Shown piece after piece: positions 40,498-47,471 of a stretch of 64,000 nucleotides of DNA. The first letter of the stretch is position 1; every line of letters starts with the position of its first letter. The DNA comes from Flavobacterium tibetense (lineage in GTDB: Bacteria > Bacteroidota > Bacteroidia > Flavobacteriales > Flavobacteriaceae): positions 62,001 through 126,000 of the forward strand of contig NZ_QLST01000006.1 of assembly GCF_003293845.1 (NCBI RefSeq), given 5' to 3'. A program made the position numbers and the translations under genes. Below the pieces are notes generated by a model. It was not told the DNA's origin, did not search any database, and worked only from the letters and a program-made list of their open reading frames with translations.

Positions 40498-42624
40498 ATG
40501 AACAAAAAAAACCTATTAATCTTAACATTTGCTAGTATGACAATGATTACCAGCACGACAGTTGCTCAAAAAAAGCAAACGAATCTAAATCCATTTTTTG
40601 AAAAGTACAATACGCCGTACAACGTTCCTACATTTGATAAAATAAAAGTAGAACATTTTAAACCAGCGTTTTTGGAAGGAATCAAACAACAAGAAAAAGA
40701 AATTGATGCTATTGCAAGCAACACACAAAAAGCTACTTTCGAAAACACCATTTTAGCAATGGAAAATTCAGGGAAACTGTTGAGTGAAGTTTCTACCGTT
40801 TTCTTCAATTTGAGTTCAGCGAATACGAATGCTGACATTCAAAAAATTGCTCAAGAAGTTTCTCCATTACTTGCCGCTCATAGCGATAACATCAACTTAA
40901 ACGAAAAGTTATTCCAAAAAGTAAACAGTCTTTGGCAAAGTAAAAACCAATTAAATTTGGGAACAGAAGAAGCGAAATTACTAGAAAACGCTTATAAAAG
41001 ATTTACAAGAAATGGCGCAAAATTAGACGAAAATGCCAAAAACAGATTACGTCAAATCAATGCCGAATTGTCTTTATTATCGGTAAATTTTGGACAGAAT
41101 ATTTTAGTTGACACCAATGGTTTTGAAATGCTAATCGACAAAAAAGACGATTTAGTAGGTTTACCAGAATCAATAATTCAAGCTACTGCAGAAACTGCAA
41201 AAAGCAAAGGTCACGATGGAAAATGGTTATTTACTATTCACAATTCAAGTGTGATGCCATTTTTACAATACAGTGCTAATCGTGCATTAAGAGAAAAAAT
41301 GTACAAAGCCTACAAAAACAGAGGAAACAATGGTGGCGCCAATGATAACAATGAAAATGCTATTAAATTGGCGAATCTTCGTTTGGAAAAAGCGCAAATT
41401 CTAGGTTACGAAACTTTTGCACATTATGCATTGGAAGAAACAATGGCTAAAACTCCTGAAAAAGTAACGTCATTTTTGGAAGATTTATGGAAACCGTCAC
41501 TAGCAAAAGCCAATGAAGAAATTGCAGAAATCAAAACCATGATGAACAAAGATGGCATTTCTGGCGATGTACAACCTTGGGATTATAGTTTTTATAGTGA
41601 AAAAATCAGAAAAGCTAAATTTGATTTGGACGAACAAGAATTAGCGCCTTATTTCAGTATTGAAGGTGTTAGAGAAGGAATTTTCATGGTAACCAATAAA
41701 CTTTGGGGATTAAAATTCAAACAAATTACGAATGTTCCAGTGTATCATCCTGATGTGACTTCATGGGAAGTTATGGAAGCTGATGGCACACATTTGGGCG
41801 TTTTATTTATGGATATGCATCCAAGAAGTTCTAAAAGAGGTGGCGCTTGGATGACATCGTATCGTCCGCAAACGATGAAAGATGGAAAACGTGTAGCACC
41901 AGTAATTTCAATTGTTTGTAATTTTACAAAACCTACTAGCACTACTCCAGCTTTATTGACTTTTGATGAAGTAACTACATTTTTCCATGAATTTGGACAC
42001 GCTTTACACGGATTATTATCAGATGTGAAGTATAAAAGCTTAGCCGGGACTTCTGTTTCAAGAGATTTTGTTGAATTACCTTCACAAGTCATGGAAAATT
42101 GGGCTGCAGATCCAGTAGTTTTAAAAATGTATGCCAAACATTACAAAACTGGAGCTGTAATTCCAGATGAATTGATTGAAAAGTTAGAGAAAGCCGCAAC
42201 ATTCGGACAAGGATTTGCTACTACCGAATATTTAGCTTCTTCATTGTTAGACATGGATTACCATTCTATTACATCGCCAATTAGCGGAAAAGCAACTGAT
42301 TATGAAGCAAACTCAATGAAAAAATACGGATTAACTAGTGCAATTACGCCAAGACATAGCAGTACGCATTTTAGTCATGTTTTTTCTGGTGGCTATTCGG
42401 CGGGTTATTACAGTTATATTTGGTCGGGTGTTTTAGATACGGATGCTTTTGACCAATTTAAGAAAACCTATTTATTCAGTCAAGAAAAAGCGAAATCGTT
42501 CCGAAATAATATTTTATCAAAAGGAGGCACCGAAGATCCAATGGTTTTATACAAAAGATTCCGAGGAAGCGAACCTTCTATCGAACCTTTATTAAAGAAA
42601 AGAGGTTTAGACAAAAAATCATAA
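40498..42624 (+). CDS. dcp: M3 family metallopeptidase (dipeptidyl carboxypeptidase type)
   Basis: The 708-residue enzyme has a signal peptide (LLILTFASMTMITSTTVAQ) and the M3 zinc motif HEFGHALHGLL (H497, E498, H501), with the third ligand Glu expected about 25 residues on in VSRDFVELPSQVMENW. It removes dipeptides from the C-terminus of peptides or cleaves short peptides, here probably in the periplasm. PFFEKYNTPYNVPTFDKIK at the mature N-terminus and SKGGTEDPMVLYKRFRG near the end are typical of the Dcp/OpdA group. The gene is followed by a terminator that shares 23 identical bases with two more copies downstream. Confidence 0.93.
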   Translation: MNKKNLLILTFASMTMITSTTVAQKKQTNLNPFFEKYNTPYNVPTFDKIKVEHFKPAFLEGIKQQEKEIDAIASNTQKATFENTILAMENSGKLLSEVSTVFFNLSSANTNADIQKIAQEVSPLLAAHSDNINLNEKLFQKVNSLWQSKNQLNLGTEEAKLLENAYKRFTRNGAKLDENAKNRLRQINAELSLLSVNFGQNILVDTNGFEMLIDKKDDLVGLPESIIQATAETAKSKGHDGKWLFTIHNSSVMPFLQYSANRALREKMYKAYKNRGNNGGANDNNENAIKLANLRLEKAQILGYETFAHYALEETMAKTPEKVTSFLEDLWKPSLAKANEEIAEIKTMMNKDGISGDVQPWDYSFYSEKIRKAKFDLDEQELAPYFSIEGVREGIFMVTNKLWGLKFKQITNVPVYHPDVTSWEVMEADGTHLGVLFMDMHPRSSKRGGAWMTSYRPQTMKDGKRVAPVISIVCNFTKPTSTTPALLTFDEVTTFFHEFGHALHGLLSDVKYKSLAGTSVSRDFVELPSQVMENWAADPVVLKMYAKHYKTGAVIPDELIEKLEKAATFGQGFATTEYLASSLLDMDYHSITSPISGKATDYEANSMKKYGLTSAITPRHSSTHFSHVFSGGYSAGYYSYIWSGVLDTDAFDQFKKTYLFSQEKAKSFRNNILSKGGTEDPMVLYKRFRGSEPSIEPLLKKRGLDKKS

Positions 42625-42667
42625 AAACAAAAATTCCCGAATTAGCAGTAATTCGGGATTTTTTTTG
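42622..42667 (+). terminator. dcp terminator, first copy of the repeated terminator block
   Basis: The stem tcccgaatta / taattcggga (42635-42644 and 42649-42658) with loop gcag is followed by T8. The 23 bases from 42622 to 42644 recur exactly around the terminators at 43.50 and 44.76 kb. Confidence 0.9.
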
Positions 42668-42688
42668 GTAGGAAACCTTTTTTTAATT

Positions 42689-42718
42689 GGTATATAAAAG
42701 GATTTGTATACCAGCGGT
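42689..42718. repeat. Hairpin followed by ACCAGCGGT motif, copy 1
   Basis: GGTATA (42689-42694) pairs with TATACC (42707-42712), and ACCAGCGGT covers 42710-42718. A second copy with a different stem but the same trailing motif is at 43590-43615. It sits just beyond the 3' end of a leftward accessory gene. Confidence 0.55.
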
Positions 42719-42724
42719 GCTTTT

Positions 42725-43363
42725 TTATTTCAGTTTTCCAATCCACACATCGCCTTTTGGATAAAAATAAATTTTCTCATTATCTTTTTCAATTACGTGA
42801 AATTTCTCTTGAATTAGTTTTTTGTAAAATCGTTGGTCTTTATGATATTCCTTTTCAATTTTATATTGTTCTTTTGGCCAATTTATTTCACATTCGTGAA
42901 TAGAGTCCAAATCAATTTTTTTGTCCCAAGCAAATTTTTGTAATTCAGTTGATAATTTTCCAAATTGATTGGTGTCTAATTCGCTATTTTTCTTAGAAAC
43001 TAAAAAACTTTCATTTTCGTAATAAGCTACTTTTTCGTCTATTGCACACACAACTTCTGATTTCAGCATTCTCGGATTATAAAGCCAAATTGCTAAATAA
43101 TATTCTTTATTTAATTTATCAAGTTCATTTTTCCATTCAAAATATGTTTTTAACAGAGTCTCGATAATTATTTTTCTTAACTCTCCTTTTATTCCAAATT
43201 CCTCACCATACCATTCTTCAATTTCATAATTAAAATATTTTTCCTGATATAGGAAATCTATATCTAATTTGGAATCAGAGTCAATAATTGACTTATTTAT
43301 ATCTCTGATGATTTTCTTTGAAAAAATAGTTTTCTTTTTCATTTCGGATTTTCTAAAATGCAC
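42725..43363 (-). CDS. Uncharacterised accessory protein (212 residues)
   Basis: I do not recognise this protein. It is soluble, highly charged (Lys/Glu-rich), with predicted helices and no signal peptide. Visible landmarks are EIEEWYGEEFGIKGELRKII, YLAIWLYNPRMLKSEVVCAI (a beta-strand-rich patch) and KIYFYPKGDVWIGKL at the end. A second in-frame ATG seven codons in (43342) may be the true start. It is A/T-rich, stands alone between dcp and a duplicated leader and terminator block, and is likely accessory. A leader of about 130 bp upstream is shared with the DUF5677-like gene's upstream region. Confidence 0.65.
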   Translation of the reverse strand: MHFRKSEMKKKTIFSKKIIRDINKSIIDSDSKLDIDFLYQEKYFNYEIEEWYGEEFGIKGELRKIIIETLLKTYFEWKNELDKLNKEYYLAIWLYNPRMLKSEVVCAIDEKVAYYENESFLVSKKNSELDTNQFGKLSTELQKFAWDKKIDLDSIHECEINWPKEQYKIEKEYHKDQRFYKKLIQEKFHVIEKDNEKIYFYPKGDVWIGKLK

Positions 43364-43498
43364 TACAACTTGTTTACATACGAAACTTCCTAACTACTCT
43401 AACGCCGTATTGGTAAAATTGTCGAAAGTTTTACAAGTTTTGATTTGATCAAAAATAATAAAAAAAGATTTAACAAATCAACTTGAACTAAAAACAAA

Positions 43499-43537
43499 AA
43501 TTCCCGAATTACTCAATAACTCGGGAATTTTTTTTGG
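43499..43537. terminator. Repeated terminator, second copy
   Basis: Arms aattcccga (43499-43507) and tcgggaatt (43521-43529) with T8 following. It could end transcription in either direction. On the minus strand it separates the DUF5677-like gene from the 212-residue gene. Confidence 0.85.
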
Positions 43538-43547
43538 TGTGAAAAAA

Positions 43548-43571
43548 CTATACTCTACCTTTCAATGCGTT
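43548..43571 (-). pseudogene. 3' remnant of the 60-residue membrane-protein gene
   Basis: Read on the minus strand these 24 bases encode NALKGRV and a stop, exactly the C-terminus of the intact gene at 44810, with one synonymous change (GGC to GGT). Upstream of Asn the match ends abruptly. This is what a partial duplication, or insertion of foreign DNA at the 3' end of a gene with restoration of that end, would leave behind. Confidence 0.8.
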
Positions 43572-43589
43572 TTTTTTATTTAGTTGTTA

Positions 43590-43615
43590 CACGAAAGAAT
43601 TCGTGCACCAGCGGT
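43590..43615. repeat. Hairpin followed by ACCAGCGGT motif, copy 2
   Basis: CACGAA (43590-43595) pairs with TTCGTG (43600-43605), followed by CACCAGCGGT ending at 43615. Compared with copy 1 both sides of the stem are changed while pairing is kept. Another short palindrome (CGGAAAGCATTTCCG, about 43639-43653) follows. Confidence 0.6.
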
Positions 43616-43689
43616 CAATTTTTATCTACTTTATAGGCACGGAAAGCATTTCCGCTATCGTTGCGGTGATACATCCGAGCGGTCGGGTT

Positions 43690-44577
43690 TTATTCTTTTG
43701 TATTTAATTCATTTGAAAACTTAACGAGCATTAGAAATAAAATTGGTATCATATTTTTCAATTCACTATAATATTCAAATGAAGATTTTAATTTATCATT
43801 TAAAGGAAGATATTTCATATCATAGTTTTTTTTAATTTTAATTTTATCATCTGGGTCAGGAAGCATACTAAAAGGCATTGATGCACACATTATTGCATAA
43901 GTTAAGGTAAAATGTGAGTCATTTGATATTGTTTCAACGCCTAATAACTCATTTTTTAAGTCGGATTCAAAGCTAAAACCATCAATCATATTACTTGGAT
44001 GTGATGTTGTGCTTAAAACAGCCTTCATATGAGAAATTTGAGTGTCTAAATTTCCAAACCATGTTAGCTTTTTATTAGAAACTTGATCCTTTATAAATTT
44101 TTCAGTTTTACTGCTTTTTATATATTTATGCCAAAACTCATTTGATTCTTTAAAGCCAAAATTGTTTCTATATTCTTCTAAAAAAGATGAATCAAGCTTG
44201 CACCTTGACCAAATTAATGAGGTTTCATATACTAATCGCAAAATAGTTCTTGCATCAGTATCTAAACCATAACTACATAATAACCTTATTGATGTTAGAT
44301 GTTTAATTTGTCTAATTGTTAATCTATAATATGTAATAGAAAATTTATTTTTTTCTAAAGCACTAAGTAAATAAAATTCAGAAAGAATTCTTAATAAAAC
44401 AATATATTCATCTAGATATGCAAACAATGATGATATTTTGGAATTTTTAACTTCAATATTAAATTCATCATAAATATTTTCACCAAATGTTTTTTCGACA
44501 AAAGTAAACCCCTTTTTATTGTATAAAAGTTTAATGGTATTAATTGCATGTTGATAAGATAATAGGGTTCCTGGCAT
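43690..44577 (-). CDS. DUF5677-like protein of unknown function
   Basis: The 295-residue, mostly helical, soluble protein contains RLLCSYGLDTDARTILRLVYE, which resembles the DUF5677 core in which a helix with GL..AR..LR.L.E is the hallmark. No catalytic motif is evident, and function is unknown for the family. The reading is very A/T-rich with many Ile, Asn and Ser. The gene is alone, leftward, and bracketed by ~200-bp direct repeats, suggesting it arrived as a unit. Its upstream region carries the same leader as the 212-residue gene. The DUF name is from memory and moderately sure. Confidence 0.65.
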   Translation of the reverse strand: MPGTLLSYQHAINTIKLLYNKKGFTFVEKTFGENIYDEFNIEVKNSKISSLFAYLDEYIVLLRILSEFYLLSALEKNKFSITYYRLTIRQIKHLTSIRLLCSYGLDTDARTILRLVYETSLIWSRCKLDSSFLEEYRNNFGFKESNEFWHKYIKSSKTEKFIKDQVSNKKLTWFGNLDTQISHMKAVLSTTSHPSNMIDGFSFESDLKNELLGVETISNDSHFTLTYAIMCASMPFSMLPDPDDKIKIKKNYDMKYLPLNDKLKSSFEYYSELKNMIPILFLMLVKFSNELNTKE

Positions 44578-44631
44578 GAATAAATTGGATTAAGCTCTTG
44601 AATTCTCAGTTCTGCGGTAATCTTACTGTTA

Positions 44632-44833
44632 ACTCGTTTATAAACAAAACTTACTAACCTCTCCCGTACCTTATTGGCAAAGTTGTTAAAAAATTTACAA
44701 GTTCTGATTTCTTCAAAAATAAGAAAAAAACATTAAAAAATTCAACTTAAACTAAAAACAAAAATTCCCGAATTACTAAATAATTCGGGAATTTTTATTG
44801 GTATAAAAACTATACTCTGCCTTTCAATGCGTT
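44632..44833. repeat. Direct repeat B (leader + terminator + end of intact gene)
   Basis: This copy starts ACTCGTTTATAAAC and aligns with repeat A through to the NALKGRV codons of the 60-residue gene. Its terminator stem (13 bp) is more perfect than that of copy A (9 bp), suggesting B is the original site and A the decayed copy. Confidence 0.85.
44763..44793 (-). terminator. Repeated terminator, third copy
   Basis: A 13-bp perfect stem (aattcccgaatta at 44763-44775, taattcgggaatt at 44781-44793) with loop ctaaa and A-run on the left, ending the leftward 60-residue gene. Confidence 0.9.
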
Positions 44834-44992
44834 AAAAACCCAAGCGATGGCAAAAAAACCAACACCAACAGCTCCAAATCCCCAACCTGCTACATCATCA
44901 TAACGATAAATACCCAAACCAATAATTAAGATTCCCATCAAAATCATAATAAATGTTGCCCAAGCCAAAACTGTATTCTTATTCATTCCCAT
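44810..44992 (-). CDS. CAL67264-type small membrane protein
   Basis: The 60-residue product has two membrane helices (LAWATFIMILMGILIIGLGI and a second one, WGFGAVGVGFFAIAWVF) joined by YRYDDVAG, with the C-terminus NALKGRV. This resembles the conserved Bacteroidota family labelled CAL67264; the label is from memory. Function is unknown. The start could be the first or third codon (both ATG). The last eight codons and the terminator are duplicated 1262 bp away, so the gene's 3' end is the apparent target of an insertion or duplication event. It is divergent from the mrp operon. Confidence 0.8.
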   Translation of the reverse strand: MGMNKNTVLAWATFIMILMGILIIGLGIYRYDDVAGWGFGAVGVGFFAIAWVFNALKGRV

Positions 44993-45147
44993 AGTGAAGT
45001 CATTTAAAATTTGAGGAGAGCAAATATAGTAAAATTATATAGTTTGATAAATGCTAATCAACAATTCCCAAACAATTTCTTTAAAAACGAACTGTTAAAT
45101 TTATGCTATGATTTTCCATAAATAGCTTCAAAACCCTTGAAAATTCG

Positions 45148-45155
45148 TATATTTG
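45148..45155 (+). promoter_or_regulatory. -7 promoter box for the mrp operon
   Basis: TATATTTG matches TAnnTTTG and lies 24 nt before the mrpA start codon, giving a leader of about 17-20 nt without Shine-Dalgarno. The gene-free stretch 44993-45179 otherwise holds A/T-rich DNA and probably the divergent promoter. Confidence 0.5.
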
Positions 45156-45179
45156 AGGTTTAATCTTACTAAATAATTC

Positions 45180-47471
45180 ATGCTTGCTATAGTAGTACTT
45201 TGTTTTATTACCGCCATATCCTTACTTTTTTTTGGGAATTATATTAAGAAAAATGCTGCTTTTGGACTCACTTTTTTGCCTTTAGCTGGTTTTGTCTATT
45301 TCTTAAGTAAATTACCCCAAATTACCAATGGAAATATCGTAACAGAAAGCTACAATTGGGTGCCAAGTTTAGGTATTCAATTGACTTTCAGACTAGACGG
45401 ACTTTCCTTATTGTTTGCCTTGTTAATTACTGGAATAGGAACTTTAGTATTTGCTTATACTTCCAATTATTTAAAAGAAAACGACCATTTAGACCGATTT
45501 TATGGTTATTTAAGTGTTTTCATGGCAGCCATGCTAGGATTAGTACTTTCTGATAACTTAATTAGTTTGTTTGTTTTTTGGGAATTAACAAGTATTAGTT
45601 CGTTTTTCTTAATTGGATTTAAGAATAGTAGTGCAACATCAAGAAAATCAGCCTTACGAGCGTTGACAGTTACTGGTTTGGGCGGTTTATTTTTATTGGC
45701 TGGAGCTTTGACTTTTGGTACAATTGCTGACACCTATTCTTTTCAAGAAATTTTAAATGGTTCGATAGATTTTACTCAACATCCTTTATATTCCTTGCTG
45801 TTGTTGTTCATTTTTGGAGCAGCATTTACTAAATCGGCGCAATTTCCTTTTCATTTTTGGTTGCCTGGTGCTATGGAAGCTCCTACTCCAGTTTCAACGT
45901 ATTTGCACTCAGCAACAATGGTAAAAGCAGGAATTTATTTATTGCTCAGATTTTCACCTGTTTTGGGTCAGCATGAATACTGGCAACTTACATTAATTAC
46001 TATTGGTGGAATAACTATGATTTATGCCGCATTTCATACACTTTTCAGAACCGATTTAAAAGGAATTTTAGCCTATTCTACCATTGCTGCATTGGGAATT
46101 ATGGTTTTTTTAATTGGAATTGGAACCGAATTAGCCTTAACCGCAGCACTAACATTTATAGTAGTTCATGCACTTTACAAAGCCACTTTATTCCTAGTAA
46201 CTGGAACTATTGATCATGAAGCAAAAACTAGAGATGTAACCCAATTAGCTGGATTAAGAAAAGTGCTTTTACCTGTTGCCATAGCTGGATTTTTAGCTGC
46301 TTTTTCCAATGCAGGAATTCCGCCATTTTCGGGTTTTATTGGAAAAGATTTGATTTATGAAGCGGGATTGCATAGTTTTCAACCTGTTTTATTGATTGTT
46401 GTAGCTGTTATTACCAATGTTTTATTGGCTTACGCTGGCTATTTGGTGGGAATTAAACCTTTCATTGGGAAATTACCCGAGAAATTTGAAAAAATACATT
46501 TACCAAGTCCGTTGTTGTGGTTTCCGCCATTGCTTTTGGCTGTTTTAGGATTACTTTTTGGAATTGTTCCAAAATTATTAGTTTCATTGGTAAATCCTGC
46601 TTTGCAAGAAACGTTTATTGGTGCAAATTTGGTGCAATTGAAACTTTGGCATGGATTTAACTTGGTTTTATTGTTGAGTTTAGTAACTATTATTAGTGGT
46701 CTTCTATTGTTTTATTTCTTGAAACCAAATAACGATTTAACCAAATTTATTGTACAATTTCAAACCATTTCTCCTCTTGGAATTTTTGAAAAAATAGGTA
46801 TTTTAATGACCAAAGTCAGTTTGTTATGGACTAATTTTTTTCAAAACGGTTTTTTAAGAAATTATGTTTTAACCATTATTCTAGTAATTTCATTTTTAAT
46901 TGGTTACAACTTATTTTTCAACGCAAAATTCCTTTGGGATTTTTCAACAATACTAAGCGTCACTAATTATGAAATTGGCATTCTGTCGGTAATGTTAGTT
47001 GCTATTTTATTTACTGTCTTTACCTCTTCGAGACTAACTGCAGTTGCTTCTCTTGGTGTAGTTGGCTATGCAATATGTTTACTGTTTGTTTTTTACAGCG
47101 CACCAGATTTGGCCATGACCCAATTTACAATCGATACGTTAACAGTAATTTTATTCGTTTTAGTATTGTATCGTTTACCAAAATATCTGAAATTATCTGA
47201 AAACAAAAAACGTATTCGCGATGGCTTTGTTGCGTTGGTTTTTGGCGGATTAATCACCATACTTTCATTAGAAGTAATTCAAGAACCAATGAATAATGAA
47301 ACAGGTAAATTTTATGCGGAAAATGCGTATTTATTAGCCAAAGGTAAAAATGTAGTTAATGTTGTTTTGGTAGATTTTAGAGGAATTGATACCTTAGTAG
47401 AAATCACCGTGTTAGCAATTGCTGCCATTGGCGTATTTGGCTTATTAAAATTAAGAATTAGAAACAACTAA
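45180..47471 (+). CDS. mrpA: Mrp-type Na+/H+ antiporter subunit A
   Basis: The 763-residue protein belongs to the NuoL-like core of the multisubunit Mrp (Mnh/Sha) antiporter, which exports Na+ (or K+) using the proton gradient. The core NuoL-like region has LHSATMVKAGIYLLLRF (essential Lys in a membrane helix) and FWELTSISSFFLIGF. The C-terminal third has the MrpA-specific extension (APDLAMTQFTIDTLTVILFV) and an MrpB-like last segment (NVVLVDFRGIDTLVEITVLA). It starts the seven-gene operon, followed by mrpB after only 2 nt. Confidence 0.94.
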   Translation: MLAIVVLCFITAISLLFFGNYIKKNAAFGLTFLPLAGFVYFLSKLPQITNGNIVTESYNWVPSLGIQLTFRLDGLSLLFALLITGIGTLVFAYTSNYLKENDHLDRFYGYLSVFMAAMLGLVLSDNLISLFVFWELTSISSFFLIGFKNSSATSRKSALRALTVTGLGGLFLLAGALTFGTIADTYSFQEILNGSIDFTQHPLYSLLLLFIFGAAFTKSAQFPFHFWLPGAMEAPTPVSTYLHSATMVKAGIYLLLRFSPVLGQHEYWQLTLITIGGITMIYAAFHTLFRTDLKGILAYSTIAALGIMVFLIGIGTELALTAALTFIVVHALYKATLFLVTGTIDHEAKTRDVTQLAGLRKVLLPVAIAGFLAAFSNAGIPPFSGFIGKDLIYEAGLHSFQPVLLIVVAVITNVLLAYAGYLVGIKPFIGKLPEKFEKIHLPSPLLWFPPLLLAVLGLLFGIVPKLLVSLVNPALQETFIGANLVQLKLWHGFNLVLLLSLVTIISGLLLFYFLKPNNDLTKFIVQFQTISPLGIFEKIGILMTKVSLLWTNFFQNGFLRNYVLTIILVISFLIGYNLFFNAKFLWDFSTILSVTNYEIGILSVMLVAILFTVFTSSRLTAVASLGVVGYAICLLFVFYSAPDLAMTQFTIDTLTVILFVLVLYRLPKYLKLSENKKRIRDGFVALVFGGLITILSLEVIQEPMNNETGKFYAENAYLLAKGKNVVNVVLVDFRGIDTLVEITVLAIAAIGVFGLLKLRIRNN

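Follow-up and report, generated by a model that had tools for sequence, protein, structure and literature searches.

Putative dispersed attI-like sites of an integron-type system in Flavobacterium tibetense

Between the peptidase gene dcp and m60, a gene for a 60-residue membrane protein, the genome of Flavobacterium tibetense carries two single genes and two copies of a block of about 200 bp. How did these genes come to lie there, and what part does the repeated block play in it? The locus lies within a stretch of 64,000 nucleotides (NCBI RefSeq assembly GCF_003293845.1, contig NZ_QLST01000006.1, positions 62,001 to 126,000 of the forward strand), which we call the window and to which all coordinates without a prefix refer; G, C and L numbers are our handles for genomes, contigs and loci, and gene names other than dcp were assigned by reading translations. 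A preliminary description of the window had seen a cassette-like patch at this locus, and had proposed either site-specific insertion at the 3' end of a gene, with that end restored, or repeated recombination at a terminator block used as an entry site. We consider it highly probable that the leader half of the repeated block serves an integron-type system as an attI-like site, that the recombinase of this system is encoded on another contig, and that cassettes enter the site between the G and the TT of a GTT triplet (G^TT). Eight dispersed, presumed landing sites in this genome are probably served by one integron-like enzyme.

The repeated block and its recurrence

Both copies lie on the reverse strand. 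Pairwise alignment within the window joins 43367-43545 to 44631-44809 at 82% identity without gaps, and the repeat is continued by 43530-43571 against 44792-44833 at 83%. In a whole-genome search, copy B (43367-43571) finds copy A (44631-44833) as a single piece, with 84% identity over the 205-base query (expect value (E) 4e-56), which confirms the repeat that the preliminary description had placed at 43368-43571 and 44632-44833. The alignment also bears out that each block contains the last eight codons of m60, displaced from their gene in copy B, and a terminator hairpin, next to which lies the leader. The repeat starts at AACGCATTG of m60 on one side and terminates at the GTT of the attI-like site, the integrase crossover triplet, on the other. 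Of the third, partial copy noted earlier after dcp, the terminator holds up (42622-42675, the dcp terminator, 88% identical over query bases 28-83), and this copy consists of the terminator only. Copy A carries a promoter-like TATTTTTG (44721-44714) and attI-like site A (44621-44715, reverse strand) with its presumed crossover at 44633^44632; the equivalent elements of copy B are TATTTTTG at 43457-43450, site B at 43357-43451 (reverse strand) and a crossover at 43369^43368.

A scan of positions 42500-45200 against Rfam yielded no family at its gathering score (the best of seven sub-threshold matches, all taken as chance, has an E of 0.028), and the single-strand folds of the two leaders are unremarkable (z -1.45 and -0.37); a known RNA element was therefore rejected. 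That the two copies are themselves attC sites is not supported either, because no paired end follows them downstream.

The halves of the block differ in their distribution, a point that had gone unseen together with the terminal GTT. Elsewhere in the own genome, the whole-genome search gave a single match to the terminator half, of 45 bases on contig C6; the leader half recurs at other places and in other genomes. A search with copy B gave at least one match at E ≤0.01 in 245 of 398 genus genomes, most of the matches listed being short, and the leader half was found with 77-80% identity at six places in five genomes. A reading frame begins 22-59 bases past the GTT of the leader at four of the six places and 465 bases past it at L117; for L118, the matches listed hold only a later part of the frame. 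At L115, L116 and L117, which belong to three genomes, the same upstream gene is accompanied by a leader that is 99% identical over 105-108 bases and by different DNA downstream. Other genes stand behind the same leader in other genomes, as a cassette-like patch would lead one to expect. Furthermore, the first ten bases from the G of the leader recur in inverted form beyond the gene, with 10/10 identities in G023, G067 and G310a and 9/10 in G310b and G260; this partner was not found in G032 or at the two window copies.

We built a covariance model of 95 positions (R1) from seven leaders, including both window copies and excluding the site on C15 discussed below, and ran it on 150 genomes, of which 27 have a match at E ≤0.01 (50 places listed). 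As training members, sites A and B score 90.4 bits (E 2e-15) and 95.6 bits (E 1.4e-16). The top match in the own genome (C15:1346-1440), a sequence from outside the training set, lies 37 bp past the stop codon of a tyrosine recombinase gene. Matches lie 18-126 bp past the recombinase gene in seven genomes (the own genome, G027, G056, G078, G089, G095 and G146), and at nine further loci, four of them from other families, a similar site ending in ..AGTT can be seen by eye past the recombinase stop in all nine. The arrangement of an attI site next to the integrase gene, which is typical of integrons, is found in all these cases.

Within F. tibetense, the model detects eight sites at E ≤0.0012, followed by a next match with E 0.55; seven of them score 79-101 bits, two of these seven being training sequences. 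Besides the site beside the recombinase (C15) and the two at m60 in the window, they are located near umuC (C21), near hpf (C11), near lpdA (C53 end), on C2, where an OmpA-like gene lies on the opposite strand at a distance of about 900 bp, and on C8, near a gene of 115 residues after a PepSY-like gene. A reading frame is present downstream of each of the eight. Partner ends are exact (9/9) at three of the own sites (C11, C2 and C53 end), and with one mismatch allowed they are found at six (8/9 at C15, C21 and C8). Taking together all 31 attI-like sites with known surroundings, an exact 9/9 partner lies within 4 kb downstream in 15 (10 of the 24 dispersed ones), compared with 21 of 920 foreign keys in the control.

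Some of these cassettes border on other elements. The cassette ends of C15 and C21 enter one common sequence after TAA. A fragment of a group II intron maturase (GIIM) lies near the C15 cassette end (L128:117-521), and the same translation starts in C21 (L170:117-521), where Rfam gave no match in L170; the fragment and the shared sequence would presumably fit attC-targeting introns. At L171, L172 and L174, three dispersed sites close to contig ends, the cassettes are followed by the same two reading frames, one of which is DDE_Tnp_1_6 (in L171); perhaps these belong to an element that aims at attC.

The recombinase and the cassette arrays of relatives

The gene on C15 encodes an XerA/IntI-like tyrosine recombinase of 345 residues. 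The window contains no relative of it (tblastn, E up to 1), which agrees with the earlier remark that an integrase is absent, and the protein is a candidate for the mover that was expected to come from elsewhere. For three proteins of this type, the best NCBIfam model is NF040815 (XerA/integron integrase; 221-241 bits, cut-off 220), and all three fail TIGR02249 (213, 204 and 209 bits, cut-off 265). A true IntI in the genus was rejected, as none of the 150 genomes searched exceeds the TIGR02249 cut-off; matches below this cut-off also occur in all 14 control genomes and therefore signify, taken alone, only 'tyrosine recombinase'. Residues 202-247 of IntI4 are replaced by five residues in the C15-type recombinase (about 41 fewer), so that the IntI-specific segment is missing, and with it the additional domain expected of an integron recombinase. 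Of 13 aligned relatives, 12 retain the motif residues usually regarded as catalytic, such as the Arg of LRHS and the Tyr of IYTHV. The G146 recombinase (L182:9786-10829) has Gln in place of the former and His in place of the latter, and may therefore be inactive.

At its N-terminus, the protein has an extra part of about 70 residues, with a predicted beta-beta-alpha-beta-beta-alpha order (predicted local distance difference test (pLDDT) mostly >80; predicted template modelling score (pTM) of the whole model 0.54). Among 198 genomes from the phylum, a composite query of this part has matches at E ≤1e-4 in 26, some of them weak; seven of the ten genomes from this genus are among the 26. The G084 recombinase (L131), which has 276 residues, is devoid of it and heads no such array. 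A further recombinase, in G067 (L136:173-1915, near a contig end), has 580 residues and a different long N-terminal part.

For the proposed role of the C15 gene in cassette recombination, the grounds are its attI-like neighbour and the arrays of relatives. In G061, G119 and G133, the recombinase is followed by some 9 to 12 small genes on the same strand within about 9 kb, separated by gaps of mostly 105-200 bp. Such same-strand arrays are present at L129, L130, L132 and other loci; in several relatives, the recombinase stands at the head of small genes of unknown function with attC-like sites between them. Six of the ten loci scanned have paired ends, and in these six arrays, 30 of 42 R'' ends are matched exactly (8/8) by a partner where their own cassette begins, as expected of the complementary R'' and R' ends of attC (permuted mean 2.2, maximum 9). 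When six sites were folded as bottom strands, four formed R/L stems with a small internal loop and two, as cut, did not; their z values range from -1.7 to -6.8, in keeping with the imperfect hairpins of attC sites. A dispersed site and an array can also share cargo: a cassette gene at a dispersed site in G067 and a gene of the array that follows the recombinase in G095 encode proteins of 87% identity.

Origin of the two window genes

Behind copy B lies the orf212 cassette (42720-43368, reverse strand; gene 42725-43363, with an ATG start more likely at 43342). Its gene is found in 11 of 396 genus genomes including the own, with protein identities of 94% in G367 and 32-41% in the rest. A block of about 650 bp is shared at the DNA level with Flavobacterium sp. 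MLJ.10 (96.9%), the Flavobacteriaceae metagenome-assembled genome NORP129 (91.1%) and Lacinutrix himadriensis (82.3%). Homology with these three begins at query bases 132, 131 and 132, respectively, the crossover G being base 132; a shared block that starts at G^TT in several contexts is what is expected of a cassette. In Lacinutrix, the cassette contains a second gene and then, 468 bp past orf212, GCACTACAAC, the partner predicted for GTTGTAGTGC; attC-like DNA lies on either side. The window block is truncated at its right end and stops five bases past the orf212 stop codon, so the attC is gone. In NORP129 (L221:4651-5630), another reading frame of the same strand ends where the cassette starts.

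The presumed cassette gene behind copy A (43690-44577, reverse strand) has a weak similarity to DUF5677 (Pfam E 6.5e-5, 23.5 bits, below the cut-off of 27.1). Among the 398 genomes, a full-length match exists in the own genome only, next to one weak match elsewhere, and no match was found in plasmids or in the named genomes. PADLOC gave no match for either window gene; of six other cassette proteins, five had none, and that of the L172 gene had a weak one to a ThsA model (E 2e-4). The description of both as single genes of unknown function stands, orf212 being without a Pfam family and the DUF5677 similarity below its cut-off; and the same two genes in all relatives, which would have marked the patch as old and stable, are not what these occurrences show.

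The host gene m60 (44810-44992, reverse strand), upstream of the presumed platform, is present in 143 of 150 genus genomes, and abcF directly follows it in 23 of the 29 relatives read; here, the repeat and the two genes sit between m60 and abcF. The convergent neighbour dcp (40498-42624, forward strand; peptidase M3, PF01432, E 5e-133) adjoins m60 in G301 only among the relatives read. G301 supplies the strain with an empty site that had been predicted: m60 is followed by 54 bp containing the terminator and then by dcp, which is 97.5% identical at the protein level. Because m60 precedes abcF in those 23 relatives and, among the genomes read, adjoins dcp in G301 only, an old stable neighbourhood was rejected. 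The G301 state could be ancestral, or the cassettes could have been lost there via recombination between terminator copies. In G125 (L050), a truncated abcF start lies directly after m60, and other DNA takes over from there.

From these observations, the following course of events suggests itself. Cassettes, each a gene with its attC, would enter the attI-like site by recombination between its G and its TT. Once inserted, they could be driven by the promoter-like TAnnTTTG that lies immediately before the site. Given that the eight sites lie at different chromosomal places, the recombinase would act in trans on them. The window site would lie in the terminator shared by m60 and dcp and would have received two cassettes, orf212 and the DUF5677-like gene, with a separate attI copy now in front of each. 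As the probable origin of the second unit, we envisage recombination between an attC and a secondary site within the tail of m60 (AACG^CATT), by which the tail would have been displaced and the terminator and attI duplicated; since then, the attC ends of both cassettes would have disappeared, which probably leaves the two fixed in place. A counterpart exists in G032, where a cassette and a umuC tail lie between tandem attI copies. This tail starts at the G^TT that follows an attC-like AAACG, and we infer that there, too, an attC recombined with a secondary site in a gene tail. The tails differ in length, with eight codons of m60 and about 100 bp of umuC, and m60 in the window has GCA instead of GTT at the start of the tail, which makes the argument weaker in the window than in G032; unequal homologous recombination is a possible alternative source of the second window unit. 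Both mechanisms of the preliminary description have to be revised in this light: the repeated m60 tail resembles the displaced umuC tail beside the tandem attI pair of G032 and is therefore not simply a restored gene end, and cassettes seem to enter at the attI-like leader with its G^TT crossover, not at the terminator block.

Several points weigh against an integron-type system. The case is built on comparing sequences, and homologous recombination could copy the leader without any integrase. No 9/9 partner end exists for window sites A or B, and an exact partner within 4 kb is lacking at 16 of the 31 attI-like sites, with contig ends cutting off some of the loci. The 8/9 partners of C15 and C21 run into one common sequence, and many R1 matches are weaker (E 1e-4 to 0.01) and count as candidates only. 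In G022 (L138), the recombinase has the extra N-terminal part, yet no array lies downstream. With the motif used, L133, L135, L181 and L183 show no paired ends, and a short scan of the DNA past the recombinase stop gave a paired end in one of nine loci. The orf212 partner end, and with it an attC after the gene, is absent in the window, MLJ.10 and NORP129. For the DUF5677-like gene, no relative with which its boundary could be compared was found, and no partner end lies in the window. Finally, the R1 matches in G301, the relative with the empty site, are only weak: the top two have E 0.00125 and 0.00187, and both terminate by eye in a ..TATAAACNAGTT-like sequence.

Some of these points would suit a simpler account, by which the leader is merely a promoter and 5' untranslated region that was duplicated with the terminator, the genes having entered by homologous or illegitimate recombination at the terminator repeats. 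The terminator is present in three copies, direct repeats favour recombination, the 84% identity of copies A and B is as expected of an old local duplication, and the window lacks partner ends. Yet the part that recurs in other genomes and beside the recombinase is the leader, not the terminator; the homology of orf212 with its three foreign copies starts at or no more than one base from G^TT; and the pairing of cassette ends in relatives is far above that in controls. We consequently hold this account to be very improbable. The duplicated tails, of m60 in the window and of umuC beside the attI copies in G032, could also recall island-type elements that a tyrosine recombinase inserts site-specifically at the m60 3' end, restoring the gene end. 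We regard this as very unlikely, for the tails stem from different genes and are of unequal length (eight codons of m60, about 100 bp of umuC), the constant part being the attI-like site; moreover, the inserted units read are mostly single genes, and the window is without a relative of the C15 recombinase.

Alternatively, ordinary integron cassettes might have entered non-classical genomic sites (attG type), with the likeness of the leaders due to chance or promoter similarity. Cassette insertion at genomic sites has been published (Loot 2024, cited in PMC11023631 and mentioned in PMC12901181), and the crossover here is G^TT. What makes this a poor prospect is that seven of the eight own sites, two of them training sequences, reach 79-101 bits with a 95-position model, far above what a short core would give. 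Least credible of all is insertion or copying by a transposase of the own genome associated with repetitive extragenic palindromic (REP) sequences. The window does hold a REP-like sequence after the DUF5677-like gene (43621-43690), which the preliminary description had not seen, with an 88% match to a flank of a Y1 (IS200-like) transposase gene on C1 (L055:2607-3327). Since it matches both flanks of that gene, the genome seems to have a family of REP sequences and REP-associated tyrosine transposases (RAYT). The REP-like sequence, however, lies outside the repeated block, its good matches in the own genome are on C1 and C10 only and not at other attI-like sites, and it bears no relation to the paired ends or the G^TT boundaries, for which reason REP/RAYT-driven insertion was rejected.

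Relation to known systems

The integron-type system that we favour shares with chromosomal integrons (IntI, attI and attC arrays) the recombinase beside an attI-like site, the same-strand arrays of small unknown genes, the paired R''/R' ends, the folded bottom-strand sites and the G^TT boundary. Unlike in these, the recombinase has no IntI-specific segment, fails TIGR02249 and passes NF040815, it points in the same direction as the cassettes, and several attI-like copies lie away from it. XerA-type recombinases (NF040815; PDB 5hxy and 4a8e) are the best matches of its catalytic part, but it differs from them in the extra N-terminal residues and in the cassette arrays of several genomes.

In PMC9668308, an integron is defined by a tyrosine recombinase with an IntI-specific additional domain, which is held to be necessary for recombination. 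Insertion at genomic attG sites (Loot et al. 2024, mentioned in PMC12901181 and cited in PMC11023631) resembles our case in that cassettes reportedly enter the chromosome away from the integron; the targets here are instead conserved, dispersed attI-like copies that hold different cassettes in different species. Likewise, the Delta-attI cassettes of class 1 and 2 integrons (PMC12901181) have an attI downstream of the cassette gene, in the order attI-gene-attI. Those copies lie inside integron arrays, whereas the ones described here occupy separate chromosomal places, and the two tandem sets (window and G032) carry tails of host genes.

PMC8618304, PMC9668308 and PMC2426708 report integrons from Bacteroidota or the Bacteroidetes/Chlorobi group in general, and part of this system may therefore already be treated in literature outside open PMC. 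Among the titles and abstract beginnings of open PMC papers that our searches listed, we found no Flavobacterium integron of this kind and no dispersed attI copies.

We also incline slightly to a broader view, in which Flavobacterium and other Bacteroidota would possess a distinct class of integron, with an XerA-like recombinase that has its own N-terminal domain, no IntI segment and another route to attC. Its many attI copies would be dispersed, the 'array' being split over the chromosome into single cassettes, each placed after a promoter where a housekeeping gene ends. Recombination of an attC with a secondary site in a gene tail upstream of an existing attI would give rise to new sites. 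If true, an integron-type system without the IntI-specific domain would directly test the view that this domain is required. Many chromosomal locations could then receive cassettes simultaneously, and perhaps allow their expression, and surveys that seek IntI beside an array could miss such systems. Some lone A/T-rich Flavobacterium genes of unknown function could likewise be explained as exchangeable cassettes.

Two related hairpin elements with ACCAGCGGT lie directly past both cassette genes in the window and are absent elsewhere in the loci read. The copy at 42678-42728 follows orf212, and that at 43575-43625, 75% alike, follows the DUF5677-like gene; we have considered them as possible attC remnants. 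Among these loci, the hairpin context of ACCAGCGG occurs at the same two places only.

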